64,000 nucleotides of DNA from Blastopirellula marina DSM 3645 (lineage in GTDB: Bacteria > Planctomycetota > Planctomycetia > Pirellulales > Pirellulaceae), in NCBI RefSeq assembly GCF_000153105.1, contig NZ_CH672376.1, forward strand, positions 549,092-613,091. Direction: 5' to 3'. A program made the translations under genes and the position numbers. Shown piece by piece: positions 4,630 to 64,000 of this stretch (position 1 is the first letter of the stretch; each line of letters starts with the position of its first letter). The notes under the pieces are model-generated. The model worked only from the letters and a program-made list of their open reading frames with translations. It did not search any database and was not told the DNA's origin.

Positions 4630-5637
4630 TTAGCGAACCGCTTGGGGGGAAGCCGCAATCTTGCCGGGGACGCCTCCTTCGTAGATGCTGAACTCGCCCC
4701 AGACCGGCATGTGGTCTGAGATCTCCAGCGCTTCGTCGATCGACAGATTGAATTCGCGAACGTAGTCATGCACGCCGCCGCGGCCCGTAAATTCGCTGGT
4801 CGCCGGCAAGGTGAAGTAGAGATTGTCGTAAGACGCAGTTCCCCGTGTGTTGGTCATCATGCCGGTCACCGCCGGCGAGAGCCCGGTCAGACTGCCGAAC
4901 TCGCCCAGGTTGCGTTCGTCGGTATTGAAATCGCCCAACAAGATCACGTCATCTTCGCCGCGACCGTCGCCGCGGACGGCGCGGAGGACGTCGTCCATCA
5001 CGTTGATCTCGTCTTTGACTTCGTCGGGATCGGTATGGATGTTGACCAGGGTAAAGGTAAACGCTTGTTCTGGGTTGGGCCCGCGGACGCGGAACCAGGC
5101 GACCAGCGGTTCGCGATGAAGCGCATCGCCGGGATCGTCGATCGTATAGAGCTGCGTTCGATCGAGCTCGATACTCGCGGTGTCATAGATGTAGGCGTAC
5201 TGTTCTTTGCTGTCGCTCCGTCCCAGACGGGGACCGATGACATAGTCGTAGTGGCGCCCTGCGGCGTTAATTTGGTCGATAAATTCCGGTAAAATCGATT
5301 GGTCGAGCGAACGAATCTCCTGGATCGCCATCACGTCGTACTGACGAACAATCTGCGCGAGTCGAGCCATCACATGCGGTTTGTCCGCTTTGCTGCGGCC
5401 AAAGACTTGAATATTGAACGACGCGATCCGGATCGTCTCGCCGCCGCGCGTGATCGGCGCTTTGCGAGCGCTGATCAACTGGCTGGTTCCGGATCCTGAT
5501 GGATCGGCCGACGCCGTTGCGTCACGGGGAACGACTTTGAGGCCGTCGAGCCCTTCGATGCGAAAGTTCTGAAAGAAGAACCAAGTCGCTCCGCACGCGA
5601 TGGCGGCCAGGGCTAGTCCGCTCGCTTTGTTCACCAT
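4630..5637 (-). CDS. Membrane-anchored endonuclease/exonuclease/phosphatase (DNase I-like) protein
   Basis: A 335-residue protein with an N-terminal membrane anchor or uncleaved signal (ALAAIACGATWFFF) followed by an EEP/DNase I-like domain. Family motifs are in order: IASFNIQVFG, MAIQEIRS (metal-binding Glu), TLVNIHTDP (catalytic His), ILLGDFNTD (Asp/Asn) and ISDHMPVWGEF (Asp-His pair). It is predicted to be a phosphodiesterase acting outside the cytoplasm; the substrate could be DNA, phospholipid or another phosphodiester. ATG 5637 was chosen because it starts just before the anchor; the upstream extension has no recognisable domain. It is divergent from the gene at 5825 with a 187-bp shared promoter region. 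Confidence 0.85.
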   Translation of the reverse strand: MVNKASGLALAAIACGATWFFFQNFRIEGLDGLKVVPRDATASADPSGSGTSQLISARKAPITRGGETIRIASFNIQVFGRSKADKPHVMARLAQIVRQYDVMAIQEIRSLDQSILPEFIDQINAAGRHYDYVIGPRLGRSDSKEQYAYIYDTASIELDRTQLYTIDDPGDALHREPLVAWFRVRGPNPEQAFTFTLVNIHTDPDEVKDEINVMDDVLRAVRGDGRGEDDVILLGDFNTDERNLGEFGSLTGLSPAVTGMMTNTRGTASYDNLYFTLPATSEFTGRGGVHDYVREFNLSIDEALEISDHMPVWGEFSIYEGGVPGKIAASPQAVR

Positions 5638-5824
5638 TCGCTCCAGATTAGGAAATTGCGCCAGTTCGGCTTTGGGGGGGACGCGGTCGCTGCACCGGTC
5701 CAGACAGTCGGGAGAAAATTGGTCGGCGAAAAACCGGGACCGAAGATCTCCTTTTCGTTGTATCGGCCGTTGGCTAGCTTTATCTTGGAAGGGCTGTTCG
5801 GGACTCATACGTGCGGGAGAATCG

Positions 5825-7093
5825 ATGCGGTTTACCTGGTTGCTAGCAGCGGCATGCTGGATCATGACGGCACAACCGGCATGGTCGGATACGGTGACCT
5901 TAGCTAGCGGCGGAAAGATTTCAGGCGACTTGCAAGAGACCGCCGGCGACTTGGATGCGCCGCAGCGGATCGTCTCGTCCCATGGCGTGGTCGAGTTGGC
6001 GTTGGACCAGATTGTCGAGATCGAGCGGGAACCGCCCGAGTTGGCCGAGTACCGAGATCGCGCCCGCCGTGCGGCGGCGACCATCGTCGACCAATGGAGC
6101 CTGGTCGAGTGGTGTCGAGAAAACGGTCTGCATGACGAAGCGAATCGACATTGTGAGCGGATCCTAGAGCTAGATCCCGATCATGAGCAAGCGAGAAAGC
6201 TGCTCGGTTATCGCAAGCGAAACGGCGAGTGGAGCCAGCGCGAAGACTATATGCAGTCGCGTGGTTTTATCCGTTACCGGGGACGCTGGCGAACGCATCA
6301 GCAAGTGCAGTTGATGGAAGAAACGCGGCTGATCAAAGCGGCGCAAGTCGAGTGGTACAAGCGTCTGAATCGTTGGCGCGAATCGCTGGGGACGCCGCAC
6401 GAGCGCGAGAACCAGCTCGACTTTTCTCAGCTCCGCGATCCGATGGCGATGCATGGCTTGATGACGCTGCTAGGGCGGGAGGATAACCTCAAGCTGCAGC
6501 GACTTTATATCGAAACGCTGGGAAACTTGGATCGTAACGCGGCGCTCAGTTTTTTGCTGGATCATTCGGTTTATCAAAACAATCCGGATCATCGCGAGAT
6601 GTGCATGATCGAAGTGCTCAAGCATCGCCATCCGCAAATGATCGAGCGTTATGCGAGATTTCTCACCTCGTACGACAATAACCTGGTGAATCGCGCCGCC
6701 GAATGCCTGGCGGCGCTAGAGTATCCAGCGGCGGTGACGCCGTTGGCCAACGCGCTGCGGACGCGGGTGATCATGCAAGAGTTTCGGAAAAGCTCGAACG
6801 GGAAAACGTACGAAAGAAATGCGATCTACCACTACTCTCGTTTTCCGGTTTCGCAGCGTTTTGACATCGCCGGGCCGACTCCCTCTTATCGGATGAAAAC
6901 GGTGGATGATGTGGTCGAGAGGTCGCAAAGCGCCCACGCGATTGCTTGGGTCGAGAATCCCCCTGTTTATGCGGCGCTGCGTAAGCTGACAGGCGGCGGC
7001 GATTTCGGCTATAACGCGGCAAGTTGGAAAGCCTGGTACACGCAGCGGCAAGTGTCGGCGACGCCGGTGATTCAAGCTCGGCGCGGTAACTGA
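5825..7093 (+). CDS. Secreted HEAT-like/armadillo-type repeat protein, function unknown
   Basis: A 422-residue protein with a clear signal peptide (FTWLLAAACWIMTAQPAWS, cleaved before DTVTLAS). After a short beta-rich segment (GGKISGDLQ) it has a TPR-like stretch (WCRENGLHDEANRHCERIL.LDPDHEQA) and then helical repeats resembling HEAT units (LQRLYIETLGNLDRNAALSFL, NRAAECLAALEYPAAVTPLANAL). The region RKRNGEWSQREDYMQSRGF recurs in planctomycete secreted proteins. Probably a periplasmic scaffold; no catalytic motif is visible. ATG 5825 places the signal peptide first; the longer upstream frame has none. Confidence 0.72.
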   Translation: MRFTWLLAAACWIMTAQPAWSDTVTLASGGKISGDLQETAGDLDAPQRIVSSHGVVELALDQIVEIEREPPELAEYRDRARRAAATIVDQWSLVEWCRENGLHDEANRHCERILELDPDHEQARKLLGYRKRNGEWSQREDYMQSRGFIRYRGRWRTHQQVQLMEETRLIKAAQVEWYKRLNRWRESLGTPHERENQLDFSQLRDPMAMHGLMTLLGREDNLKLQRLYIETLGNLDRNAALSFLLDHSVYQNNPDHREMCMIEVLKHRHPQMIERYARFLTSYDNNLVNRAAECLAALEYPAAVTPLANALRTRVIMQEFRKSSNGKTYERNAIYHYSRFPVSQRFDIAGPTPSYRMKTVDDVVERSQSAHAIAWVENPPVYAALRKLTGGGDFGYNAASWKAWYTQRQVSATPVIQARRGN

Positions 7094-7112
7094 AACCCGG
7101 AATAGGATAATC

Positions 7113-7496
7113 ATGAACAAGCCGACCGTCGCCATCTTGGGCGCGAGCACCCATCGATCCAAATACGGAAACAAGTCCGTCCGCGCCCATCTGCAGCAAG
7201 GTTTTGAGGTCTACCCGATCAATCCGCAAGCCGGCGAGATCGAAGGCTTGCAGGCATACGCCAAGCTGGCGGACTTGCCGATCGACAAGCTGGATCGAAT
7301 TAGCGTTTATCTGCCTCCGAAGATCGGGATCGAGTTGCTCGAAGAGATCGCCGCCGCCGGCGCAACCGAAGTCTTCTTCAATCCCGGCGCCGAAAGTGAA
7401 GAGCTGCTGGCCAAAGCCCGCGCGTTGGGGATCGATCCGATCCAAGCTTGCAGCATTGTCGACGTCGGCATGTCACCGCGAGAATTGGCCGATTGA
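7113..7496 (+). CDS. CoA-binding domain protein (YccU-like)
   Basis: A 127-residue Rossmann-fold CoA-binding protein. The N-terminal TVAILGAS..RSKYGN binds nucleotide, VYPINPQA and VYLPPKIGIELLEEIAAAGATEVFFNPGAESEELL-type strands follow, and the end has IQACSIVDV. This corresponds to the single-domain CoA_binding_2/YccU family, related to the succinyl-CoA synthetase alpha subunit N-domain. The biological role is not established. The start lies 19 nt after the stop of the upstream gene, with a purine-rich AATAGGATAA stretch before ATG, so it is probably cotranscribed with the secreted repeat protein. Confidence 0.88.
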   Translation: MNKPTVAILGASTHRSKYGNKSVRAHLQQGFEVYPINPQAGEIEGLQAYAKLADLPIDKLDRISVYLPPKIGIELLEEIAAAGATEVFFNPGAESEELLAKARALGIDPIQACSIVDVGMSPRELAD

Positions 7497-7814
7497 ACGC
7501 GGCAATGCGGCCAGATTTGTAGGGTGCGTCTGGACGCACTTTACCTGACTTTGATGGCCGAGTCACAGGCATTGTCAACGAAACTCTGCATTAACGGTGG
7601 TTACTGTCACAGCCGTAAGCATGGGTTGCCACATCGGAACTGCGGATTGTTCGGCCTCAACGACTTCGTGAGCGTTTAGGATTGCAGCGGTCAGTTGCCC
7701 AGTGCACGACCGCTTACGCGTTAATAATACACACACTTGTGAGGCGCTGACCGACGGTGGCAACTCTAGTAAAACATGATCTCAAATCCCGCCTCACCGG
7801 CGGCTCCGGTTCAC
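7497..7814. other. Intergenic region with a GTAGGGTGCGTC hairpin element
   Basis: The first part contains one hairpin repeat (7519-7539). From about 7575 to 7770 base composition falls and a 62-codon leftward frame exists, but it shows no initiation signal, domain or coding character that I recognise. It may be a gene remnant at the edge of the lower-G+C island. Confidence 0.45.
7519..7539 (+). repeat. GTAGGGTGCGTC-NN-GACGCAC hairpin element
   Basis: GTAGGG followed by TGCGTC/GACGCA arms around a 2-nt centre. Copies or partial copies lie at 10349-10366, 10471-10492 (reverse orientation) and 38018-38040. All are intergenic. Confidence 0.7.
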
Positions 7815-8846
7815 CTATTGCTTTTGCCTTCCTTGCGATTCGCTTGAAGCTTCGCCACTGAGGAATTCTTTATCCGCGGCACTAAGATTAGCGATAGCAA
7901 CGTTTACGGTTGCTCCATCCTTCTTTCGTAACACGACGTGCGTCGTTGACTTCTTGACAAGCTTCGCCTCAACACTGAATTTGCCCGTCGAATCTTTCCA
8001 AGTTCGAAAAACGGGTGTTCTTGCTAGAGGTTTACCTTTTGTTGCTAAATATTTCGAATACTCGATCGTTTCTTTCAGTTCCGGAAGCATCTGACGACTG
8101 TAGTCGGACTCTCTGTTACGAGTGTAATCCATACCAAGCATCAATAAATCTCCGGGCGCTGTTCGCACAAGTAACGGGATCGGGTGTTGGCCTGTAGGTG
8201 TTGAATCACGAAGTGCTTCGACGCTTTTGAGCCACTTGTTGTATGGTCCGGCAGTTCCAAATCCGAACTCTCTAAATTTGGGTTCGTCTTTGAACTTCAG
8301 CAGTTGCTCAAGGAGTACACAGACATTTCTCTTAATCACTGCTGTAGCCGCAATGGCGTCGCTTATTCGCGCCGCCTGAGCGGCGTCTGGGTCTTCACCG
8401 ATAGAAAATCCCGTTCGCTGTGAGACGGTTCTTCCGAAGCGTCCAGTCTCAACGAGTGGCCCGGTAAGTTTCTCCCCTTTATCACCGATCAGCTTTTTGA
8501 CATCAGCGGTTTGAGCAGCAGATATCGGCATTACCGCTTGCGCGATGTATCGTCCGTCTTTGAGTCCATCTCTTGGACCGAACGTTTCGGACCTAAACGT
8601 CCCGTCCTTCGACACAATACAGCTTGATTGCCCTGAAAAGCCATTTTCCATCTTTTCTTTGACGCTCAGCATCAACTTTGTACCTGGTGGCAAATTGGTT
8701 GTGCCAGCAAGTTGAACATGGTTGTCGGGTTGTTCGACGATGGTGAGCACCAACTCTACGTCGTCACCCAATGCAAAAGCGTTGAGCGTAGGAAATAGAA
8801 ACAACGCGAAAACGATAGAGAAGCGAGGCAAAAGAGTTACCTCCAT
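7815..8846 (-). CDS. Secreted SHD1-domain protein, function unknown
   Basis: A 343-residue exported protein. It has a signal peptide (LPRFSIVFALFLFPTLNAFA) at the chosen ATG 8846. The C-terminal ~55 residues form an SLA1-homology-1-type domain (RTWKDSTGKFSVEAKLV, VVLRKKDGATVNVAIANL, LSAADKEFL), which is frequent in planctomycete secreted proteins. The central region (LVLTIVEQPDNHVQLAGTTNLPPGT) looks like a beta-sandwich with a predicted helical part after it; no enzyme motif was seen. The base composition is visibly lower in G+C than the flanks. It follows the PIN-like gene on the same strand (73 bp gap) and may be cotranscribed. Confidence 0.75.
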   Translation of the reverse strand: MEVTLLPRFSIVFALFLFPTLNAFALGDDVELVLTIVEQPDNHVQLAGTTNLPPGTKLMLSVKEKMENGFSGQSSCIVSKDGTFRSETFGPRDGLKDGRYIAQAVMPISAAQTADVKKLIGDKGEKLTGPLVETGRFGRTVSQRTGFSIGEDPDAAQAARISDAIAATAVIKRNVCVLLEQLLKFKDEPKFREFGFGTAGPYNKWLKSVEALRDSTPTGQHPIPLLVRTAPGDLLMLGMDYTRNRESDYSRQMLPELKETIEYSKYLATKGKPLARTPVFRTWKDSTGKFSVEAKLVKKSTTHVVLRKKDGATVNVAIANLSAADKEFLSGEASSESQGRQKQ

Positions 8847-8919
8847 GGCAGATCGCTTGTAAAGCCAAGCCGTCTTGATTGGTATTATAAATTCAAACAT
8901 GCTGTCGAAACCTCTGCAT

Positions 8920-10041
8920 TTATGGGTTGCCTTGATCAACCAATTTCAGCGCTTCCGATGGCTTGTAAACCGCTTGGCACGTAAACTGGTACTCAAACTT
9001 CAAATTTCGGTCTCGAAGCAAGTGGCACAAAGAGCGTTCGGTGAAGAACAAATCGCAATATGGAAGTGCGGCGATTGCGTGGCGAAAATCGAACAGATCG
9101 TTTGGCTTGTATTTGCGGCTTCGGTCCCATCGAACGGCGGCATGCAGCCCAGCTCCAATCCGAAGTGACGGGAATTGATTTGTGATCTTGTTGAGTCGAA
9201 GCGCGTTATAGATCAGATTGATGAACATTTGACCGCTCCGTGTATCTTGTCGCTCTGCGTCACTCAGTTTATTGCCCGTATCGCGTTCGTAGATGTACCG
9301 AAACAAATCACAGAATGCGTCTCGATATACATCGAGAATCCCTTGAACCTCGGAAAGGAACATTTCCTTAAATGATGCGTGTACCTCAAGGTTGGCAAAT
9401 TTTCCGGAGTTTAAGGCGTCGGAGATGTCTTCAAATGGCGATTGCCTTGCAGCTACGTTTGCGGGCCCCATGACGGTCAGCACGTCTATCAAGCCGAGGG
9501 ACCACATGTAATCGGCAAACGATTTTTGAATAGCCATGTTGAGGTCTTTCGGCATGGCATCGCTATCGGGCGTTATAAATCCAAGAACGTAAGCCGTTTT
9601 CGTCCAGACGAGTTCCCAAAGTTGATGGAGCGCGGCGCTTTCTTGTCGAGTTGACTCGACGAAATGAAAGGCCTCAAGTTCGAATCGTTGCGGCATTGGA
9701 AGCAAGCAAACACCGAGAGATAAATCGTCTATGAGCCCAGCGGTTGCCATTAGCGTCTGCTCGTCATCCTGCTTCATTACCTCGAAGTAGATGTCCGCAT
9801 TCAGCGGGCAAATCAACGAACCGTCGGAAACGCGTGACTCTAGAACTCTGAGAAGGCGTTGAGTGTCAGGACAATTTGAGCGACCGAGCCTTACGTCTCG
9901 AAGCAACGCCCAATACTTTGTATCGAGGTAAACCTTGGTCCTAGCACGAATTTCGTGTGCTAGAGCGATTTGTTTACGCCTAACGTAAGTCGTTACATCC
10001 AACCCAGGAGTCGCGAGATGGTCAGTGACGGACGGTGACAT
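8920..10041 (-). CDS. Large PIN-like domain protein (predicted ribonuclease), function unknown
   Basis: A 373-residue soluble protein. The N-terminal TKVYLDTKYW supplies an Asp (about D40) at the end of a strand, E87 lies in ADIYFEVMK, and the C-terminal segment NDLFDFRHAIAALPYCDLFF then FTE supplies D315, D318, D330 and E335. This spacing of acidic residues resembles PIN-fold nucleases, but the protein is much larger than VapC toxins (about 130 residues) and carries a long helical insert. No antitoxin-like small gene is adjacent. Composition is lower in G+C than the surrounding genes, suggesting transfer. The PIN assignment is inferred from motif layout only. Confidence 0.6.
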   Translation of the reverse strand: MSPSVTDHLATPGLDVTTYVRRKQIALAHEIRARTKVYLDTKYWALLRDVRLGRSNCPDTQRLLRVLESRVSDGSLICPLNADIYFEVMKQDDEQTLMATAGLIDDLSLGVCLLPMPQRFELEAFHFVESTRQESAALHQLWELVWTKTAYVLGFITPDSDAMPKDLNMAIQKSFADYMWSLGLIDVLTVMGPANVAARQSPFEDISDALNSGKFANLEVHASFKEMFLSEVQGILDVYRDAFCDLFRYIYERDTGNKLSDAERQDTRSGQMFINLIYNALRLNKITNQFPSLRIGAGLHAAVRWDRSRKYKPNDLFDFRHAIAALPYCDLFFTERSLCHLLRDRNLKFEYQFTCQAVYKPSEALKLVDQGNP

Positions 10042-10496
10042 TGGAATCCGTTCGCGGGAGGATAGCGGAATGCTCAGTCAACAAGAGATAACGAATGGTT
10101 GCGTAAGGTCTGCCTAAGCACATATCAAGAATTCTATGGCGTAGCGCGGGATAGCACCGTCCAGTCCACTTTTTCCAGACACAAAGTCCCATTTCGTCCA
10201 GTGTCTATTCTTTCTACCACACGAAAATTCGGACGCAATGAAAAGCCTGGGATCGGGACGCTGTGGCATTAGCAGACTTCGCCAGCGAGTGAACGCAGTC
10301 AGAGGCGACCAACCGCATTGTCTCGCTTGCGGCGTCGGCCAGATCATTGGTTGCGTCTGGACGCACAAGACTTGCTAACCACCACGGATTCTATCTACGC
10401 GTTGCGACGCGATTCCGCTGCTTGATTGCGTTGCCACGCCATGCGATGGTTGCCCAGTTGGCAGGTTCGCGGTGCGTCTTGACGCACCCTACCCAA
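10042..10496. other. 455-bp intergenic region with two GTGCGTC hairpin elements
   Basis: Beyond the repeats at 10349-10366 and 10471-10492, only a leftward 84-codon frame (10114-10368) is open. It runs into the repeat and has no recognisable domain or ribosome-binding site, so I do not call it. The upstream promoter of the PIN-like gene should lie in the first ~80 bp. Confidence 0.5.
10349..10492. repeat. Two GTGCGTC/GACGCAC hairpin elements
   Basis: The partial copy is 10349-10366 (GGTTGCGTCTGGACGCAC). The full reverse copy is 10471-10492, ending GACGCACCCTAC, that is GTAGGGTGCGTC on the other strand. Both belong to the family at 7519 and 38018. Confidence 0.65.
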
Positions 10497-12062
10497 CTAG
10501 GCCGCTTTCTTTGCGGCTTTGGCGGGCGCGGGGCGACGCGGTAGCCAGCCTTCACCGATCACATGCAGCGCGACGCGATCTTCTAGGTTCGGGCGAAACA
10601 CCGTCAACAGCAGTAGCGGCATGTACCATGCGAGATAGGTCGTGCCGTCATTGGCGTGCCAAAATTGGGCGGCCAGCATGATTGCGGCGCTGCAGCTGAG
10701 CATTGTGCCCAGATTCTTTTGCGCCGGCCAAAAGGCCAAGCCGCACGCGCAGATCACAAACGCCGCCAAGATCGGGATGCGGAAGTCGTTGGAGTAGATG
10801 AAGTAGTTCCAGAAGCCGGTAAAGCCTTCGCTGCGCGGGCTCCACAAGCCGAACATCGCGCTGAACTGATTTAAGAAGGTCGTGAAGTTGGGCGCCACAA
10901 GCGCCAGCGTCAGCGTCAACAGCAGCAGCATCGCGGTCACGCCGATCGCAAAGCGAACGACTCCTCGCTGCCAATAAAAGCTGACCCAGAGCGGCAGCAA
11001 AAAGAGGGGGTAATAGACGGTGCCGATCGCCAATCCCAGGAAGATGCCGGCCCACGTAGGACGTCGATAACAAAGGATCGCCCAAACCAGCAGCGCCCCC
11101 GGCAAGACGTGATCGACGCGACCCGTGTAGAGCGCCGTATAAGGGATTAACAGGTAAAGCAGCGCCGCGCCGATCCCCATCGAGAGATTCTCGAAGTGTC
11201 GATAGCCGATCAGCACCACGCCGACCAGCATCGCCAGATTCGATAAGATCGCGACCAGCTTCGTCAGGATGACGATAATTCGCTGACTGCGGGCCTCTTC
11301 GTTGGTGGTTGGTTCGGACTGGGCGAACTGCGAAGTAGGAATCCGCGGCAAGAAGCTTAACAAGCGATAACCAGGACCAAAGTGGCGCAGCGACTTTTCG
11401 ACCTCTTGCGAGTCGCCGCTGGCCAGCATCATCTCGGCGGCGCGTATGCCGCGCACGTCGGCGTCGCTGGGCCGACCCACAATGATGTTCGCCATCAAGA
11501 AGATAAAGAGGGCGATGCTCATGAAGGTCATGCCGCCGACGGTCAAGTTTGGCTCCAGCATCGGACGACGAACCATCGTCGGATCAATGAATAGCCGCAC
11601 GACCAACAGGCCGCTCAGACAGAAGAGCCAGATGTAGCCATACTTTTCGAGCTGGCGCCCAATGTCGCGAGCGGCGGTACGCGCCGCTTCCTTGTCGTTC
11701 GCTTCGGAGGGATTCTCGGGAAAGGGAACGACCTCCGCCAATTCGGGCTCTTCGCCGGGTTCTAAATCAAACGAATTTGAGAGTTCGGCGGTCGGCGTCA
11801 GGGGCAGATTCTTGTTCGGATCGTCGGGCGAAGCGTCCGGGTTGGCCGCCGCGATCGCCGGCTGCGACGATTCTAAGATTTGCTGTTGGCCAAAGTGGAC
11901 CATCAGCATTCCCGGCGCCATCAAGATGATCAGGAAGATGTCGAGATTGCGAACGCTCCAGACCCGATTGAACTTAAAGTACAGACCAATCGCCAGCAGC
12001 GACGCGACATAGGCCCACGTCGAGGGATTGATGCTTTCGTATTGAAAGAGGATCTCACGCAT
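10497..12062 (-). CDS. Polytopic membrane protein, possible GT-C-type glycosyltransferase
   Basis: A 521-residue integral membrane protein with roughly 11 hydrophobic helices. A hydrophilic acidic loop (about residues 65-130, rich in Pro, Glu and Asn) separates the first two helices from the rest. A second loop (about 205-260) precedes the main bundle. Repeated short helices, the TGRVDHVLPG segment in the bundle and FWNYFIYSNDF are reminiscent of GT-C or DUF2029-like membrane proteins, but no certain catalytic motif was found. The C-terminus is Ala/Lys-rich (PAPAKAAKKAA). It stands alone, with non-coding DNA on both sides. Function is not assigned. Confidence 0.7.
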   Translation of the reverse strand: MREILFQYESINPSTWAYVASLLAIGLYFKFNRVWSVRNLDIFLIILMAPGMLMVHFGQQQILESSQPAIAAANPDASPDDPNKNLPLTPTAELSNSFDLEPGEEPELAEVVPFPENPSEANDKEAARTAARDIGRQLEKYGYIWLFCLSGLLVVRLFIDPTMVRRPMLEPNLTVGGMTFMSIALFIFLMANIIVGRPSDADVRGIRAAEMMLASGDSQEVEKSLRHFGPGYRLLSFLPRIPTSQFAQSEPTTNEEARSQRIIVILTKLVAILSNLAMLVGVVLIGYRHFENLSMGIGAALLYLLIPYTALYTGRVDHVLPGALLVWAILCYRRPTWAGIFLGLAIGTVYYPLFLLPLWVSFYWQRGVVRFAIGVTAMLLLLTLTLALVAPNFTTFLNQFSAMFGLWSPRSEGFTGFWNYFIYSNDFRIPILAAFVICACGLAFWPAQKNLGTMLSCSAAIMLAAQFWHANDGTTYLAWYMPLLLLTVFRPNLEDRVALHVIGEGWLPRRPAPAKAAKKAA

Positions 12063-12467
12063 CGTTACTTTCGGCGTGAGCCAGGGTGCGGCTGCGCATA
12101 TCGGAATCGCCGCCGAGCGATCGCGGAGGCATCCAAGTCAGGTTAGGGATTCAAGTCAATCTATTCAGCATATTGGTTTTTGCGATAGATGCAAGAACAA
12201 GCCCCCTTGCCGATGAATGCGAGCGACGTCGTAAGCCTTTAGTAAAAAGCGGTTTGCGCAGACAAGGCGCCCTATGCCGTGGTCGCGGATCGGCGCTGAC
12301 GAAGCGCGGATGTCTGACCAAAACATGCCCCAATGGGGGCGGAATTCGCTGTCCTGCGCGAAAAGCTTCATTAACCAACTGCGCCGGCCATCGGCGTTTC
12401 TTCATCTTTCCCAACTAGCCTAGGGCGGTATTGCGCCAAATGGGCCAAGGGAACGAAAGCGGCAAGT
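12063..12467. other. 405-bp intergenic region, no gene recognised
   Basis: This is the region between the divergent membrane-protein and zinc-ribbon genes. Two overlapping leftward frames (12151-12414) lack coding character. A short GCCCC-AAT-GGGGGC hairpin occurs near 12327. Promoters for both flanking genes must lie here, but I cannot place them. Confidence 0.4.
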
Positions 12468-13166
12468 ATGTCGGATGACGAGAGGATTCGCTTCAAATGC
12501 GATTCCTGTAAGCAAACACTCAAAGCGAAAGCGAAGCATGCTGGCCGTAGCTTCGCTTGTCCCTATTGCAGCACCAAGATCCGTGTTCCCCAGGTCGCCG
12601 GCGAGAAAGTGACCGCGGACGACAGCGGTTTGCCGGTCGACAGTCAGCCTCCGGCCGATGCCGCGAAAGGGAAGCCGGCGGTCAAAAGCGTCAAGCCAAA
12701 GTCACGCGATCGCTCGACCGTCATTCTCAAGCAAAGCCCTCCGGCCAAAGAGAAGCAAAAGCGGACGGCCCGCAAACTGGGAGTCGAGTTTGAACCCGAC
12801 ATCAGTGAGCGAGAACTGGAGCAATTGATTCAGTGGGCCAAGCAAAACCGCAAGCAGCGGATCAAAGAAGCGACTGACAAGTTTCAGGCGATCGTCAGCG
12901 AGATTACCCCGGTCGAATGGATGGACGAGATGCTGGTTCGCCGGTTCAGCGGCGTGTTAATCTTGTTTGATACGGACGAGTTGGAAGGGAGCGCCGAGAA
13001 CGCCGCCAAAGCGGCGCCGCGAATCTTTTCGACTGAGAATCTTTCGCCTGACGAGATCGAGCGCTTGCTGGAACTCTTTCCACAGCTGTTCACACGCAGC
13101 GACGATGGAGCAATCCGCGCCGTCGAAAACACGATGGCCACGTATCAGTTTGATGAGGATGATTAG
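12468..13166 (+). CDS. Zinc-ribbon protein of unknown function
   Basis: A 232-residue protein. The first 40 residues form a zinc ribbon with two CxxC knuckles (C11/C14 in FKCDSC and C31/C34 in FACPYC), the kind found at the N-terminus of many planctomycete proteins. Residues ~45-105 are low-complexity Lys/Pro/Ala linker. The rest is an acidic, helical domain (ISERELEQLIQWAKQNRKQR, DEIERLLELFPQLFTRSDDG) that I do not recognise. There are no membrane segments. Its start is ATG 12468 after a GGGAACGAAAGCGGCAAGT leader with weak Shine-Dalgarno character. Confidence 0.72.
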   Translation: MSDDERIRFKCDSCKQTLKAKAKHAGRSFACPYCSTKIRVPQVAGEKVTADDSGLPVDSQPPADAAKGKPAVKSVKPKSRDRSTVILKQSPPAKEKQKRTARKLGVEFEPDISERELEQLIQWAKQNRKQRIKEATDKFQAIVSEITPVEWMDEMLVRRFSGVLILFDTDELEGSAENAAKAAPRIFSTENLSPDEIERLLELFPQLFTRSDDGAIRAVENTMATYQFDEDD

Positions 13167-56553: not shown

Positions 56554-59553
56554 TCAGTCCTGCTGCATCAGGTAAGTCACAAGGTCGGCCATCTTTTCGT
56601 GCGAGATTGATTTGCCAAAGCCTTCCGGCATCAGGCTCTTTCCGGTGGATTGCAGCTCTTCGATATCTTCCCGAAAGATGGCGGTCGATTCGCCATTGGC
56701 TTGCAGGATTGTCAGGCTATGATCCGATTCGTGCGTGATGATTCCTGAAATCACGCGGCCATCGATCGTAGCGATCAGATAGTTCAGGTACTTCGAGTCG
56801 ACCGACTTATTGGGGGCGACAATTGCTTCCAGCAGGTTCTTGGGCGTTCGGTTGGTCAATGATCCCAAGTTGGGTCCGACCTGACCGCCTGCGTCGCGAA
56901 AGCGATGGCAAACGCTGCAGTTCTTTTGGAAGACGATTTTTCCTCGCCCCGCGTCTCCTTGATCAACGAGAATGGTCGTAGAGCTCATCTCCTTCTTCGA
57001 CCCGGCAGGGCTCTCGAAATAGACCCGAAATTGATCCGCCGCAGGGTGATGGAGAAAGCGTTGTTGCAGCGCCAAATCGATATCCGCCGCGACGAGCCTG
57101 CGATCACGCAGCGCCTGAACGAATCGGTCGTGCCAGGCGGGTTGAGATGCGATTACTTCAAGAACGGTGCGTCGCATTTGCGGAGAATAGGCGGACCAAC
57201 CCAAGAGCAACACGTCGCAGCATTCTGGCGTAGACTGTTCCCCGAGTCGGCGGATCAGGGCTTTCTGAAGATCCGAGGAGACCGTGGGCTGCAAGACTTG
57301 CGTGGCCAATTGAAGGTCGGCTGAAAGTTTGTCGGGAACCAGGAACAGCGAATTGATCGCCAACGATTTTAGCCAAGTGGGAGCCGTATCAGACGCAATC
57401 AGATCACGTGACGTCTGGGCGACCTGCGGAATTGCTGCGATCGCCTGGGCGGGAAGTTTTTCCCTCTGGCTCTTAGGCAAACGGCTGACAATGTCGATGG
57501 CGATCATCGTCCTGGCAAGGTCTTGCGCTTCGCCTAGATTTGTCGAAAACGTGTGGAGCAGCGGCTGATGCACATCCAGCGCCAACGCCATACGCATCAC
57601 GTCACGGTAAACTTCTCGGACCGAATCGTTTTCAAGCGGCAATTCTGAGATGGATCGAGCGACCGCGGCAATATTCTCCGCGGTCAGCGAGCTCAAAAGG
57701 GCCGTGCGAGTCCACTTGGTTGCGAGATGCTTGGGCAGCAACTTCGCCATGAGCGCGGCGGCGAAAGGTTGGTTCCATTGTCCCAGCGAGCAGGCCAGTT
57801 GAAATTGAATGACCGGATCCGGATCTTCGGCCAAGTTGGCGATCGCCTGGGAAAGCTCGGGGCCGGGATCGGCGATGTTCTCCGCCATTCTCAGGCTATG
57901 CCGGCGAATCGGCATGGCCGGATCTGCGAGGCCTTTGACGAGCAGTCTTTCGTCGATTTTGCCGACGCCATGCAAGGCGTAAAGTGCATTGAGCCGACCC
58001 AACGGCGTGCGGTCTTGGCTTAAGAAATCGCGGAGCGTGGTTTCCAAAGCGGGATCTTGAGTTTCGAGAAGCAGTCGCTTCGCGGCGTCACGAATCCAAC
58101 CGTTGGAATGATCCAACAGTTCGACCAGCGCCGCGGTCGATTGTTCACCGAGTCGAACAGGAGGGTCGGCGACACCGGCCTCGGGAACAACGCGATAGAT
58201 CCGCCCTCGGCCATCGCCGGCACGAAGATAGGGCGCAACTGCCTGTTTACCCGCTTCGGGCAGCCAATGAGGGTGTTCGATCACGTAACGATACATGTCG
58301 ACCACCCAGAGGGCGCCGTCCGGTCCGGTTCGCACCATGACGGGGCGACACCAGCGGTCTTGCGAGGCCAGAAAGTCAACGGCCTCGTCTGCGGAATCTC
58401 GCTGCATCGTAAAACTGACCCCCTGGCGCGTCAGGACGTTGCGCTGAATGACGTTATGGACCGGCTCGCAGGTAAAGCTATGCGCGACGGCGCCATCTTG
58501 GCGATCGGGAAAGAGCAGGGAATCGCGATAGACCATGCCAGAGCAAGCAGAGGTAAAGCGTCCCGATTGTTGATGGGAGTGAAATCGCGATTCAATTTCG
58601 CTGATCGGATAGACGCGTGGATTGGCCTTGGTGAGCAGGGACCGCGATTCCGGTGCGATCAAGTGAGGGTTTCTCTGGAGATACTTCTCCTCAAGCACAT
58701 AATGCCAAAGTGGGAAGCTGTTCTGCACGCCAAACCAGTTGCCCCACCCATCGGTGTTTCGGCCAAACTGCGAGGGCCCCGAAAGAGGTTCAACAGCGCC
58801 GGTGGTAGGGTGAAATCGAAAGTCGCGGCTGCCGATTTGAAACAGCTCGCCGGTCCGATGAGACTTGATTTTTGTCCCGCTGCCGTAGGATGACGCATGG
58901 CTGCCGCTCGCGCAATAGATCCAGCCATCCAGCCCCCACCGCAGTCCGTTCATTCGCAGCTGCTGGTTTCCTTCGTGAAAGCCGCTGAAGAGCACCTCTT
59001 TGTGATCGCAAACGCTGTCGTCGTTGGTGTCAGTCAGATAGAGGATCTCCGGCGCCGCGGTAACGATCACGCCGTCGTTCCAGGCAACGATTCCGTTGGG
59101 AAAGTTCAGCCCCTCGATAAAGAGCGTGGACTTGTCGTACGGACCATCCGCAGTGGTGTTTTCGAGAACTCGAACGCGGCCTCCCGGCTTCCCGTTCCCA
59201 TCCAGGCCGTTGGGATAGTCGGCCATCTCGACAACCCACAACCGACCATCCGCGTCCCAGTCAATCGCGACCGGATCCATGGTCAGCGGTTCCGCCGCCA
59301 TTAACTCGACGCGAAAGCCAGCGCGAGCCTTCCAGGCCGCAAGGCCTGCTTGGGGTTCCAGCGGCTTGGTAGGAGCCGGCGATTCGTCGGCCGGCAGGAA
59401 GGTCGGTTCCGCTGCGGTAGAAGTTGGTAGATCAACGCTAACGAGCGTCCAAGCCGCAAGGAGCACACCCAGAAGTCCCGCGGTCGGGCGAAGGTTCATG
59501 GAGATGCGATGCGTCTTCGTAGATGGGGCCTGCGTAGTAAATTGTCTGGCCAC
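56554..59553 (-). CDS. PVC-type membrane-bound dehydrogenase / HEAT / cytochrome c protein
   Basis: A 999-residue secreted protein with the planctomycete-verrucomicrobial three-part layout. Residues ~65-470 form a PVC-type beta-propeller (VDWD-like VAIDWDADGRLWVVEMADYP, VWVVDMYRYVIEHPHW). Residues ~480-860 are HEAT-like helices. The C-terminal ~120 residues are a cytochrome c/heme domain with CSVCH (879-883) and distal MPEGF. Likely an extracytoplasmic electron-transfer or sugar-oxidising protein; the substrate is unknown. GTG 59553 has GGAG eight bases upstream; ATG 59499 would be the alternative, nearer to the signal peptide (LLGVLLAAWTLVSVDL). Confidence 0.9.
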   Translation of the reverse strand: MARQFTTQAPSTKTHRISMNLRPTAGLLGVLLAAWTLVSVDLPTSTAAEPTFLPADESPAPTKPLEPQAGLAAWKARAGFRVELMAAEPLTMDPVAIDWDADGRLWVVEMADYPNGLDGNGKPGGRVRVLENTTADGPYDKSTLFIEGLNFPNGIVAWNDGVIVTAAPEILYLTDTNDDSVCDHKEVLFSGFHEGNQQLRMNGLRWGLDGWIYCASGSHASSYGSGTKIKSHRTGELFQIGSRDFRFHPTTGAVEPLSGPSQFGRNTDGWGNWFGVQNSFPLWHYVLEEKYLQRNPHLIAPESRSLLTKANPRVYPISEIESRFHSHQQSGRFTSACSGMVYRDSLLFPDRQDGAVAHSFTCEPVHNVIQRNVLTRQGVSFTMQRDSADEAVDFLASQDRWCRPVMVRTGPDGALWVVDMYRYVIEHPHWLPEAGKQAVAPYLRAGDGRGRIYRVVPEAGVADPPVRLGEQSTAALVELLDHSNGWIRDAAKRLLLETQDPALETTLRDFLSQDRTPLGRLNALYALHGVGKIDERLLVKGLADPAMPIRRHSLRMAENIADPGPELSQAIANLAEDPDPVIQFQLACSLGQWNQPFAAALMAKLLPKHLATKWTRTALLSSLTAENIAAVARSISELPLENDSVREVYRDVMRMALALDVHQPLLHTFSTNLGEAQDLARTMIAIDIVSRLPKSQREKLPAQAIAAIPQVAQTSRDLIASDTAPTWLKSLAINSLFLVPDKLSADLQLATQVLQPTVSSDLQKALIRRLGEQSTPECCDVLLLGWSAYSPQMRRTVLEVIASQPAWHDRFVQALRDRRLVAADIDLALQQRFLHHPAADQFRVYFESPAGSKKEMSSTTILVDQGDAGRGKIVFQKNCSVCHRFRDAGGQVGPNLGSLTNRTPKNLLEAIVAPNKSVDSKYLNYLIATIDGRVISGIITHESDHSLTILQANGESTAIFREDIEELQSTGKSLMPEGFGKSISHEKMADLVTYLMQQD

Positions 59554-59877
59554 AACGATAGCTCCGAGGGAGGTGCGGTTGAGTGACAGATCAGTGTACC
59601 AACAGTACGGGCCGAAGCAAGAGAATACTCCGGAGGCTCACTGCTCGAGGGATTCATTCCGGTCGGATTACTGGTCCGCTCAAGCTAACTTGCAGAGGAG
59701 CAGAGGCATCCCCACGAACCCGCTTCGCCGGCCCCAGAACAGGAGCCAGTGTAGGGCGATAGCAATGCTGCTTTTTTAACGATCAGCAAAATGCTGCATA
59801 ACGGCGTTAAGACTTCGGGCACGGAAACCGCTAGGTGAAGAAAGCTTGAGCCCCGTGATCTGTGGCGGGTCGACAAT
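59554..59877. other. 324-bp intergenic region
   Basis: It should hold the promoter of the cytochrome c gene and the end of the leftward polysaccharide operon. I see no clear terminator; the small open frames (59685-59876) have no coding character. Confidence 0.4.
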
Positions 59878-61461
59878 TTACTCTTGATTGGATTTTGGCT
59901 GATTCAAATCAAAGATGACGTACTTGCCGTTAACGCCTGCTGATATCGTGTATTTTTCGGTAAGGTGTTGGAGGATTTCTTGTTCGCCGTGCACACGTTC
60001 GGTCAAGATGACGACGAAATGGGTCGCTCCACTCTTTCGGAAATTTTCGAGTCGCGTCGTAAAGGATTCAATCTCTTCGCCAGCAGCACGTTGCAGCTTG
60101 ATGTCGCCACCATGGGGCCAGTGTTTTGCATCTAAGTAGCTGTGATATTTCAGGCCCCTAGCATAATCGTCAGTAATCGCCACGACGTTACTTCCCACTC
60201 CAACGGCTCGGCCAATTGCAACATACTCTCCCCCAGTTAGCGGTTCATAATAGGATTGTATTTCTGGTCCCGCCGAAAATCCTATTAGCGTTAGCCAGAC
60301 CGTAAGCAGTATGATTCCTGTCGCTGTGCGAGCGTTCTGACTTGCCTGCTGGAACAGCCCATCAATCAGTGGACAAAGGCAAATGCTTACCAGTGGGATT
60401 AGCACTGCACAATAGTAAGTGTGACTCATGCTCCGATAGTTGGTGGCGATCACGAAGACCATGTACCCCGCAAGTAAGCCGAGGTAAGTCCAGCGCCATC
60501 GATCGCCGCTGAACAGCACGATGCCTAAGACCACAAACAGCAGGGTTGCCCATCCATAGTAATCCTCTAGGTATTGAATCCATTGTCCCCACATGGACAT
60601 GTCCCAAAGCAATGCTGGCAAAAAAGAGACGCCTTGCTGTTGCGGACAAACGACTTGAATCCACAAAATGCTTGGCAACGCGCAGAGGATTCCAAACGCA
60701 TACCAGCGCGGGTCGGTCAGAAGGCGTTTGATTCCCAACGCCGTCAATCCTAATCCTGTAAATCCCGCACACAGAGGAAAAAACATAAAGCCAGGTTTCG
60801 CAAGTAAAAGCATTCCGCAAGCCGTTCCCAGCCAGAGAACGCGCCGCCAAGTGGTTGGATACCCAGAGCGAAGAACCAGCCAAAGAGCCAGCAAAAACGT
60901 GGCGATCATCAAGGGTTCCGGCTGGAACGTGCGGGACACGATCAAGCCCAAGGGACTATTCATGTAAAAGCCGACCGCCGCCATCTGAGTGATCGGGCTT
61001 TTGGTTAATTGGAGGACAGTCAGGAATAAGGCCGCTCCCCCTGCTAGCCATACAAGTGTTGAAAAATAGGTCGAAACATAGGGCGATTCTCTACCGATAA
61101 CAAGATAAGCCAAAGCGGTAAACAACTCGTTAACAGGCGGTTCGTAGACTTCCTCTTTGGAAACTTTCTGATAGTAGATTTGCTCTTTATCGGATTGTTG
61201 AGAGGAAGGTGTGAGCGCCAAATAGATGTCCCGTGCTCGCAACGCTGACATGTATTGCCGCATAATGTGGTAGGTTGAGGGCCACCGATCGCAATTTTCG
61301 ACGCGCTGCCACGCGCCCCAAATCACGAGCCAGGCCAGGGCGGAATAGGCGACAACTCGAATCCAATCGTAGGTCTGTGGAGCGTTCGGTGCAGCGCTAT
61401 CCGCTGTTGGTCCTGAAGCGTTGCTCTTCTGCGCTTTAGAGCCCTTCTTTTTTATTGTCAT
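59878..61461 (-). CDS. GT-C-type membrane glycosyltransferase (ArnT/PMT-like)
   Basis: A 527-residue polytopic protein with about ten helices. After a Lys-rich N-terminus and first helix (VVAYSALAWLVIWGAW), the first loop contains the acidic segment EEVYEPPVNELFTAL expected for GT-C active sites. Several helices follow (LALWLVLRSG, GTACGMLLLAKPGFMFFP, LLFVVLGIVLFSG), then a soluble C-terminal region (RAVGVGSNVVAITDDYARG). It probably transfers a sugar from a lipid carrier outside the membrane. ATG 61461 overlaps the stop of the GT2 gene by one base (TGATG), indicating translational coupling. Confidence 0.82.
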   Translation of the reverse strand: MTIKKKGSKAQKSNASGPTADSAAPNAPQTYDWIRVVAYSALAWLVIWGAWQRVENCDRWPSTYHIMRQYMSALRARDIYLALTPSSQQSDKEQIYYQKVSKEEVYEPPVNELFTALAYLVIGRESPYVSTYFSTLVWLAGGAALFLTVLQLTKSPITQMAAVGFYMNSPLGLIVSRTFQPEPLMIATFLLALWLVLRSGYPTTWRRVLWLGTACGMLLLAKPGFMFFPLCAGFTGLGLTALGIKRLLTDPRWYAFGILCALPSILWIQVVCPQQQGVSFLPALLWDMSMWGQWIQYLEDYYGWATLLFVVLGIVLFSGDRWRWTYLGLLAGYMVFVIATNYRSMSHTYYCAVLIPLVSICLCPLIDGLFQQASQNARTATGIILLTVWLTLIGFSAGPEIQSYYEPLTGGEYVAIGRAVGVGSNVVAITDDYARGLKYHSYLDAKHWPHGGDIKLQRAAGEEIESFTTRLENFRKSGATHFVVILTERVHGEQEILQHLTEKYTISAGVNGKYVIFDLNQPKSNQE

Positions 61462-62399
61462 CAATCTGCTGTTTCTTTGGCTTCAACTTCGGTGAGAATG
61501 CTGCGTAGCCCTCGTGTTGCTCGATCACCGTCGTCTTGCTTCTCCGAGGGCAGTTCGGCATCGGGCTGTTCGTCGGAGGAAAACGCCGGGGTATCGCCCG
61601 AGGGTCGCAGGTCCGGATCATCAGAAGCGTGAGCAGTCGAGTGAAAGTCCGACTCGATTTGCCGCCTGTAATCTCCGCGGCTGAAGTATTTCTCCAGCCA
61701 GACGTACATCGTGATGAAAAAATAGCGGCTCCCCATTTCACGAATTTTGAGCTTCGCCAGTCCCGTTCGACGATTTCGCCAGGTGATCGGAATTATTGTC
61801 CAGGTATACCCGCGTACGATCGCTTTGAGCGGCAACTCGACGGTGAGGTTAAAATGGGGCGCCAAGAGGGGGCGGCAGCCGTCGATCACTTCACGGCGAT
61901 AGGCCTTAAACGCGTTCGTCGTATCGTTCAGCTTGATGCGAAACACCATTTTGATGAACAAGTTGGCCATTCGGTTTAGCATCCATTTAATGGTCGGATA
62001 GTCAATGACTCCTCCCCCCTTGATGAAGCGGCTGCCAAAGACGCACTCGTAGCCTTCCTTGAGTTTCTCCCAGTAGACGACCACATCGCGGCAATCGTCC
62101 GACTCATCCGCCATCATGATCACCACGGCGTCGCCCGTGTAATGTTGCAAGCCGTATTGGATTGCGCGGCCAAAGCCGTGCGGACCAGGATTGCTCACCG
62201 GCTTGACTTCGGGAGTTTCGCCGGCGACCTTTTGCAAAACCTCCCACGTCTGGTCAGTGCTTCCGTCATCGACCACCACGATTTCGTGGGGCACCTTTTG
62301 CAGACGCAACTCCAAGTGCAGATGCTCCACGGTGGACGCAATACAACCCTCCTCGTTGCGAGCCGGAATAACTACCGAGAGTTTATTGAGCGTATTCAT
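61461..62399 (-). CDS. Glycosyltransferase family 2 (DPM1-like)
   Basis: A 312-residue GT-A enzyme. It starts with LSVVIPARNEEGCI, has VVVDDGSTDQTWEVL, the DxD-type MMADESDD and GSRFIKGGGVIDYP, typical of dolichol- or polyprenol-phosphate sugar transferases. The last ~60 residues are a charged, Asp/Ser-rich tail without a domain I recognise. It would load a sugar onto the lipid carrier used by the downstream GT-C protein. ATG 62399 lies beside the family start; the longer upstream frame overlaps the epimerase gene. Confidence 0.9.
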   Translation of the reverse strand: MNTLNKLSVVIPARNEEGCIASTVEHLHLELRLQKVPHEIVVVDDGSTDQTWEVLQKVAGETPEVKPVSNPGPHGFGRAIQYGLQHYTGDAVVIMMADESDDCRDVVVYWEKLKEGYECVFGSRFIKGGGVIDYPTIKWMLNRMANLFIKMVFRIKLNDTTNAFKAYRREVIDGCRPLLAPHFNLTVELPLKAIVRGYTWTIIPITWRNRRTGLAKLKIREMGSRYFFITMYVWLEKYFSRGDYRRQIESDFHSTAHASDDPDLRPSGDTPAFSSDEQPDAELPSEKQDDGDRATRGLRSILTEVEAKETAD

Positions 62400-62445
62400 A
62401 GCGAGGGTTATAAATGCTGGGAAAATCGGGAAGCGGATGCGTACA

Positions 62446-63510
62446 TCAATCTGCAACCAGGTCGAGCCAGTCGGGATGAGATTGAGCGAAGTCAGCAATT
62501 TCATTCAACAGCATATCGAGGGAAATACGCGGCTGAAAATTCCAAACGCGTTTGGCGCGGGCAGAGTCTAGCACCATCCAAGGGACGTCAAACTTGCGCG
62601 GCGTGCGGTCGGCCTGGACTTGATGAGGTCCCAACCTCTGTTCGCACCAACGGCTTAAATTGTATAACGAAATCGAGTTTTCAAGGCCTCCCGAAAGGTT
62701 GAATACACGCTGCTCAGGCGTGCCTGAAAAAGCCATTTGCTGTTCCAACACGGGAGATACGTCGAGCGGGGAGAGTGCCGAACGAACCTGAATTCCGGTT
62801 CCTTCATATCCCAAATAGCGGAGCGGCTTGCGGGCGTGCCAGGAGTGGATCCAGTAACTAAAGATGCCTTGCTCGGCGCGGCCAAATTGACCAGAACCCG
62901 CCATCACGTCGCAGCGATTGACCCACACAGGGAATTCGTAAGCGCTCCCGTATTCCAAGGCCATCGTTTCCGAGGCGAGTTTGGTGGCCCCATAAAGAGA
63001 CAGGGGTGGAGTCGTGGAGAAATCTTCGCTCACCCCTTCGGCAGAAAGCCCAGGCGGAGCGTGTTCGTCCAAGACAGGCCGGCAAGCTCCTTCGTCCATC
63101 ACGAGATCTAATGTCGTTAAAGGGGCAATGGAGTACACCCTGCTGGTGCTCAAGAGAATGAACCCGGCCTGGACTCGACGGCAATACTCAAGCAGGTTGA
63201 TCGTGCCCAGGAGATTGTGTTCGACTAGTTGGCGACTGTTGCTGCGGCCGTCGATTCCGGCCAACACCGTGGGATTGGCTGACGCATCAATCACGTAGTC
63301 CACTTCAGGAAGATCCTGGAGGTCGCTACTACACCTAATATCACCGTGAATGAGTCGAACGCCTCGTTTGCGCAGGTCGTTGCGATTAAGCTCGCTTCCC
63401 GAACGGCTGAGATTGTCCAGGCCGATGATTTCGAAGGCCGACGTTTCTAACCATGCCTTGGCCAATACGCTCCCTACAAAGCCACAAACGCCGGTAATCA
63501 GAAGTTTCAT
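62446..63510 (-). CDS. NAD-dependent sugar epimerase/dehydratase (extended SDR)
   Basis: A 354-residue extended SDR. The nucleotide motif is MKLLITGVCGFVGSVL (G-x2-G-x2-G), an acidic residue follows in IGLDNLSRSG, and the catalytic YxxxK is in SLYGATKLASE with Ser in LLSTSRVYS. The end (RVFNLSGGLENSISLYNLSRW) matches CDP-paratose 2-epimerase-like proteins. ATG 63510 has GGGGA upstream. It starts 65 bp downstream of a second, truncated epimerase gene of the same type and precedes the GT2 gene by 46 bp. Confidence 0.88.
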   Translation of the reverse strand: MKLLITGVCGFVGSVLAKAWLETSAFEIIGLDNLSRSGSELNRNDLRKRGVRLIHGDIRCSSDLQDLPEVDYVIDASANPTVLAGIDGRSNSRQLVEHNLLGTINLLEYCRRVQAGFILLSTSRVYSIAPLTTLDLVMDEGACRPVLDEHAPPGLSAEGVSEDFSTTPPLSLYGATKLASETMALEYGSAYEFPVWVNRCDVMAGSGQFGRAEQGIFSYWIHSWHARKPLRYLGYEGTGIQVRSALSPLDVSPVLEQQMAFSGTPEQRVFNLSGGLENSISLYNLSRWCEQRLGPHQVQADRTPRKFDVPWMVLDSARAKRVWNFQPRISLDMLLNEIADFAQSHPDWLDLVAD

Positions 63511-63575
63511 TCCATCCCCAAAACTAGGCGCTGTCGCTCCTAATCTTGGAAGCGAGCGACGCGCCGTAAGCCGCC

Positions 63576-64000
63576 TTATGCGGTCGCCAGTCGTTTTCGC
63601 CAACTATCCACAATCTGTTCTAGCGAGTTTTTAAGGGATACGCTCACCTCCCAATCAGGATAGTGGCTTTTGATCTTTGCCAAGTCGCTGTAATAACAAA
63701 TGTGATCGCCGATGCGATTCTGTTCAGAATAACTGTAAACTTGCGGGATTCCAGTCAATTCTTCCGTCAGCGCGAAGGCTTCCAAGATGGAACAAGAGTT
63801 TTCTTTCCCGCCGCCTAGATTGTACACTTCGCCGAATCTTGGCTTGGCAGCGAACGCTTCAATAAACCGAGCAATGTCGAGAGGGTGAATGTTGTCCCGA
63901 ACTTGCTTTCCTTGGTAACCAAAAATCGTGTAATGCTTCTGAGTTAAGTTGCACTTGACGAGGTAACTCAAAAAGCCGTGCAATTGTACTCCGGAATGCG
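63576..64000 (-). CDS. CDP-paratose 2-epimerase-like SDR, 5' end beyond window
   Basis: Partial: only the C-terminal ~140 residues are inside the window; the frame is open to 64000 and the start lies outside. [53 protein letters not shown] and [19 protein letters not shown] are typical of the RfbE/tyvelose-epimerase group. A 2-epimerase changes CDP-paratose to CDP-tyvelose in some O-antigens; whether that substrate applies here is unknown. It heads the visible part of the leftward operon. Confidence 0.8.

Follow-up and report, generated by a model that had tools for sequence, protein, structure and literature searches.

The Island and Its Genes

The window, by which is meant the whole 64-kb stretch of Blastopirellula marina DNA analyzed here (genome G000), contains an island of 2.8 kb (∼7540-10351) with a low G+C content that lies between two hairpin copies (Table 1). 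It holds two genes, both on the minus strand between a CoA-binding gene and the gene for a 521-residue membrane protein. One encodes a 373-residue protein that is predicted to be a PIN domain interrupted by a helical insert of ∼160 residues, and the other a protein with an SHD1 domain at its C terminus (Pfam, 4.7e-12, residues 310-361 of the long open reading frame). The SHD1 reading frame is listed from a TTG codon at 8939, the likely start being the ATG codon at 8846, which by eye opens a signal-peptide-like stretch.

Table 1. Coordinates of the island, its genes and the flanking elements in the window.
Feature	Position	Strand	Basis or remark
CoA-binding gene	7113-7496	+	Island flank
Left hairpin, GTAG-type REP (GTAGGGTGCGTCTGGACGCAC)	7525-7539		Same unit found as an inverted pair around a Y1_Tnp gene elsewhere in the genome
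Low-G+C island between two direct hairpin copies	7540-10351		Missing at the same site of G003
SHD1-domain protein, apparent passenger gene	7815-8846	-	Signal-peptide-like start; open reading frame extends to TTG 8939
Predicted solitary split-PIN protein, 373 aa, ATG start	8920-10041	-	AlphaFold2 model, fold search, 16 homologues
Predicted PIN C-terminal half, residues 291-363, with D318, H321, T334 and E335	8953-9171	-	Model; invariant columns
Predicted all-helical insert, residues 132-290; W146 invariant, G154 nearly invariant	9172-9648	-	Model and conservation
Predicted PIN N-terminal half, residues 35-131, with D40 and E87	9649-9939	-	DSSP of model; both acids invariant across 16 rows
Right hairpin, direct copy of left	10352-10366		Sequence match
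Third REP hairpin, outside island	10472-10487		Also in G003
521-residue membrane protein gene	10497-12062	-	Island flank

The G+C content of positions 7540-10423 is 0.497 compared with a window mean of 0.570 (SD 0.018 for stretches of the same size), the lowest value among all such stretches in the 64 kb. GC3 is 0.53 for the PIN gene and 0.48 for the SHD1 gene, and 0.55-0.78 for the remaining listed open reading frames of at least 150 aa. The codon-usage distances of the two genes (0.46 and 0.49) exceed those of most of the 20 other window genes used for comparison (mostly 0.15-0.39), although two of these 20, both ordinary genes, are equally far out (0.46-0.51); the island genes represent the outer edge of the range. 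The initial annotation had described two genes here with a base composition unlike that of their flanks, which agrees with these values, and both reading frames are found where it placed them. A second stretch of lower G+C content (0.51-0.55) at window positions 59500-63600 encodes a membrane mannosyltransferase-like protein, a glycosyltransferase of family 2 and an NAD-dependent epimerase, and is probably a polysaccharide locus.

Flanking Hairpins and the Empty Site

The hairpin repeats that were first noted as bracketing the two genes (at 7519 and 10349) are confirmed as exact direct copies of TGCGTCTGGACGCAC. A search of the genome with the pattern GTGCGTCNNGACGCAC gave 20 places, and none for the reversed control. 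The hairpins are GTAG-type REPs, although only one of the two flanking copies carries the GTAG tag. Elsewhere in the same genome (L067, G000:C2:1354500-1355800) an inverted pair of GTAG-tagged hairpins of the same type flanks the gene for a 182-aa Y1_Tnp protein, which is RAYT-like. An inverted-pair arrangement of GTAG REPs around a RAYT transposase gene has been described, and the same source mentions GTAG or CGTC REPs from Planctomycetes also (PMC3733652). The island resembles the arrangement described there in being bounded by hairpins, one of them GTAG-tagged, and in residing in a genome where such a pair encloses a Y1_Tnp gene, but differs from it in that no transposase gene is present in the island and the tag is confined to one of the hairpins. 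The island may have arrived via a RAYT, or via homologous recombination between REPs.

In the relative G003 (locus L043), DNA of ∼90% identity extends up to window position 7539 and resumes from 10424; the alignment blocks correspond to window positions 5001-7539 and 10424-12867, with 79 bp in between. The junction contains one hairpin in G003 and two direct copies, 2827 bp apart, in G000. The 521-residue protein has a counterpart of 98% identity in G003 and of 89-90% in G001 and G002, but in the latter two the CoA-binding side of the site differs, so that neither bears on the question of an empty site. The PIN-like gene turned up in 1 of the 98 genomes searched, its own, and not in the remaining 97 relatives, which makes gain of the island in G000 a simpler explanation than its loss in G003. 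On sequence comparison the island is foreign, the nearest relative that has the site carrying a single hairpin without the island. Presence of the genes at the same site in all close relatives, which the initial annotation had named, along with a structure lacking a PIN fold, as a refuting observation, is contradicted by the empty site in G003; the predicted structure likewise does show a PIN fold (see below). A short tandem repeat with GCGATTGCATCCT units adjoins the empty site (∼5020-5070 of L043).

Predicted Fold and Active Site of the PIN-Like Protein

Curated models provide no name for the protein: no match was obtained in Pfam, NCBIfam or PADLOC-DB 2.0.0, PHROGs gave only matches of E 0.17 or worse, a Pfam scan of nine family members revealed no family in common, and sequence searches of the PDB returned chance-level rows only. 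An AlphaFold2 model built from ten aligned members (pLDDT 87.2, pTM 0.87) was compared with known folds. With VIA-align 2, PIN-domain entries, most of them VapC, fill the top 14 rows (Z 8.8-6.9, rmsd 2.6-4.4, 126-140 aligned residues, chains of 132-147 residues), followed by protein-only RNase P (PRORP) at Z 4.4 and then by unrelated chains at Z 4.0 or below. Foldseek against the PDB and BFVD yielded nothing significant (E 2.9 for the best PIN row), perhaps because of the insert; the PIN assignment is based on the VIA-align 2 comparison, the order of the motif residues and their conservation. The insert folded alone gave a poor model (pLDDT 63.9, pTM 0.38). A PIN-like fold split by helices, as had been supposed from the sequence, is thus predicted also by structure modeling and fold search, but the length of the insert has to be reduced from the 230 residues originally proposed to ∼160 (132-290).

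PIN domains are characterized by three to four conserved acidic residues in the order D, E, D, D/E/N. In an alignment of 16 members (a seventeenth, L068, was found later and left out), Y38, D40, W44, P79, E87, Q91, S108, E123 and W146 are invariant, as are D318, H321, A322, A325, F332, T334, E335 and L338 in the C-terminal half. D40, E87, D318 and E335, present in all 16 members, provide the acids in the required order, and at the level of sequence the succession D...E...D...T-E fits the PIN motif. The choice of E335 as the fourth acid is supported by the distant relative L015, which has T-D at that position. Among the acidic residues listed by the initial annotation (D40, E87, D315, D318 and D330), D40, E87 and D318 are retained, whereas D315 is not conserved and D330 is kept in 15 of the 16 members; the invariant E335 had been missed.

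Family Membership and Distribution

Seventeen full-length members were detected in Planctomycetota, Pseudomonadota and Nitrospirota, on one conjugative plasmid and on two viral contigs. These comprise the window protein, the proteins of L002-L008 (seven), that of a Bradyrhizobium conjugative plasmid, one from G478, two from contigs of a viral collection, a further copy from the L003 genome, three from two additional Pseudoalteromonas genomes, of which one supplies two, and one from another gammaproteobacterium; two members besides that of the window come from records titled Planctomycetaceae. At the thresholds used, 6 of 392 Planctomycetota genomes gave a match, full length in 2, and the partial matches in G263, G370, G234 and G300 are not counted as members. 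The corresponding figures are 1/398 for Pseudomonadota (the centre itself), 2/369 for Gammaproteobacteria (centre included) and 4/108 for Pseudoalteromonas, in which one genome holds two diverged copies. Four queries of plasmids recovered one member, and a weak row from a Mycobacterium plasmid (E 0.3) was dropped. The window protein alone found no relative among viral contigs; an alignment found two, and a wider alignment the same two. Two queries of phage records found no member, and 5,426 E. coli genomes searched by blastn with one Pseudoalteromonas member gave no match, so that no close DNA relative of that member is present in them. With hhalign, no signal was obtained for two single PIN-looking sequences taken from the loci.

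In a tree of 16 members the backbone is open and the place of the window protein is not fixed, the planctomycete members do not come out as one clade, and one copy from the two-copy Pseudoalteromonas genome groups with the copy of another genome, not with its sister. The distribution is patchy, and horizontal spread of the gene, as cargo on its own, is the best reading.

An unnamed planctomycete PIN-like protein of 322 aa (L015:808-1776, G300; YLDQNVLS ... PYCDILVTDN) that has no Pfam match is full-length distant kin of the family (hhalign probability 97.8, E 7e-13, 299 columns). It differs in having YLDQN instead of YLDTKYW and TD instead of TE.

Genomic Context of the Members

The initial annotation had suggested looking for the gene among phage-defense genes of relatives, and such genes do adjoin it in 6 of the 17 loci. 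These are a type IIG restriction enzyme (L002, PADLOC E 0), an Mrr-type nuclease (L005, Pfam 1.3e-22; a TIR protein is encoded at a distance of 4 kb), a SIR2 protein (L017, ThsA model, 1.6e-33), Upx (L058, 1.1e-143), an AbiE pair on the Bradyrhizobium plasmid (L009), where AbiV and CBASS genes are present within ∼12 kb, and Mrr_cat_2 together with an HNH protein (9.7e-19) encoded by the second gene downstream (L060). The PADLOC scan covered part of the neighbors across the 17 loci, and the enrichment in defense genes is suggestive against a small control of 10 open reading frames of these loci that lie at a distance from the PIN gene, which produced one strong match (to an RtcR/PspF-type regulator model) and one weak match. 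At a distance of a few genes from Upx and the split-PIN gene, L058 also encodes a 903-aa superfamily-1 helicase (AAA_11/AAA_12; 7372-10083) that is possibly part of the same defense cluster. The SEC-C proteins encoded beside the L009 and L060 genes were considered as a conserved partner and rejected, as they share the SEC-C motif only.

Mobile elements form the second type of context. In a Pseudoalteromonas genome (L059, G905:C17:82000-97925) the PIN gene is cargo of an I-F3 CRISPR-associated Tn7-like transposon with TniQ, Cas8/5f, Cas7f, Cas6f, TnsA and an array whose repeats are spaced at 60 bp; its cargo includes, besides the split-PIN gene, three genes that have no Pfam family above the cut-off. 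Carriage of PIN-family and other defense cargo by Tn7-like elements has been described (PMC8649781). In L018/L049 the gene is part of a P2-like prophage, where it lies between S and J but is encoded on the other strand, in L004 two Y1_Tnp genes lie next to it, and L003 contains an M78 metallopeptidase (capP model, 1.9e-26, an ambiguous match) and a phage integrase. In 7 of the 17 loci (the window, L006, L007, L008, L011, L050 and L068) the stretch read contains neither a defense gene nor a mobile element; the L006 and L007 genes, both from Pseudoalteromonas, occupy a common site beside ordinary chromosomal genes. The presence of the gene in a prophage, a conjugative plasmid and a CRISPR-associated transposon, and beside the transposase genes of L004, could also mean that it serves the mobile elements themselves, in the exclusion of rival phages and plasmids or in element maintenance, and not in protection of the cell. 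This is unlikely, given that several copies adjoin restriction, SIR2 or Upx genes with no visible element, and such a role overlaps with defense and may involve the same chemistry.

By eye, no small gene is a constant neighbor in the 17 loci, the neighbor of the PIN gene in the window being the SHD1 gene and not a VapB-like antitoxin gene, nor is any other partner gene conserved, in agreement with the earlier statement that an antitoxin is lacking. Since the best fold matches are VapC chains, the protein might nevertheless be an orphan toxin of the VapC type whose antitoxin is encoded elsewhere or has been lost. That explanation appears improbable: besides the missing antitoxin-like neighbor, the insert is kept in all members, whereas the VapC chains, of ∼130 residues, lack it and are matched along their entire length, and the maintenance of a gene alone across phyla would be hard to reconcile with a free toxin.

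Proposed Function

The window protein is probably a solitary, autoinhibited PIN-type endoribonuclease that acts against phage. An autoinhibited nuclease released by infection is considered the best reading because the gene is single and without a constant partner, the PIN active site is intact and the insert is conserved. In the mechanism that we infer, which involves a ribonuclease activity, autoinhibition by the insert, a phage trigger and an RNA target, a metal-dependent enzyme working alone would use a core formed by residues ∼35-131 and 291-363, with D40, E87, D318 and E335, and the helical insert between the halves would probably keep it silent. Upon sensing of a phage signal the insert would release the enzyme, which would halt either the phage or its infected host by cutting tRNA or some other essential RNA. 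Into this genome the gene would have come in a REP-bounded island that also carried the SHD1 gene.

RNA decay had been offered initially as an option equal to defense, and a housekeeping nuclease for RNA processing or decay (PRORP-like or other), gained for metabolic use, might be envisaged given that the PIN-like folds include the protein-only RNase P noted above. Such a role is quite improbable and no longer ranks equally with defense, the spread being very patchy, the contexts mobile, the site in G003 empty and the neighborhood never constant. Least probable is a two-gene unit of the PIN-like and SHD1 proteins, which is suggested by their shared strand, the 73 bp from the PIN stop codon to the SHD1 ATG and their delivery in one insertion, but is opposed by the signal-peptide-like start of the SHD1 protein, which would be exported, and by SHD1 being common among the relatives (matches in 73 of 98, most of them confined to the domain) while no SHD1 neighbor was seen beside the other 16 PIN homologues; the SHD1 protein looks like a secreted passenger, apparently unrelated to the PIN system.

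If the antiphage endoribonuclease reading holds, the silencing and switching-on of a solitary PIN nuclease become a directly testable question. We regard it as possible, though at present doubtful, that the members constitute a separate, unnamed family of one-protein immune nucleases that is unrelated in sequence to DS-3 (see below), in which the insert is a phage sensor that clamps the split PIN core and opens on a phage product, and which is carried as lone cargo by CRISPR-associated transposons, prophages, plasmids and REP-bounded islands in at least three phyla.

Comparison with Known Systems

With the VapC toxins the protein shares the predicted PIN fold and a set of invariant acids whose order follows the PIN motif, a likeness of motif and not a residue-by-residue map. 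VapC proteins are ∼130 aa long and are paired with a VapB antitoxin, whereas the window protein has an insert of 160 residues and no antitoxin. The fourth acid of the VapC motif is D or N, as opposed to E in the split-PIN family. Of the PIN nucleases known to be toxins, most depend on an antitoxin; the split-PIN family would carry its own control in one chain.

The closest parallel in architecture is DS-3, which the DefensePredictor report (2026) describes as a one-protein split-PIN system of E. coli whose catalytic mutants lose phage defense, which has no antitoxin and which is proposed to be autoinhibited until infection (PMC13092281). As in the DS-3 described there, the PIN domain of the window protein is, in the model, split between the N and C terminus of one protein, by a helical insert, and no antitoxin accompanies it, a comparison of architecture and not of sequence. 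DS-3 is an E. coli protein and the window protein comes from a planctomycete; the latter may be placed with DS-3 by way of working, not as a proven homologue. Were the proposed function correct, the DS-3 architecture would no longer be limited to E. coli but would be shared by Planctomycetota, Nitrospirota and other groups.
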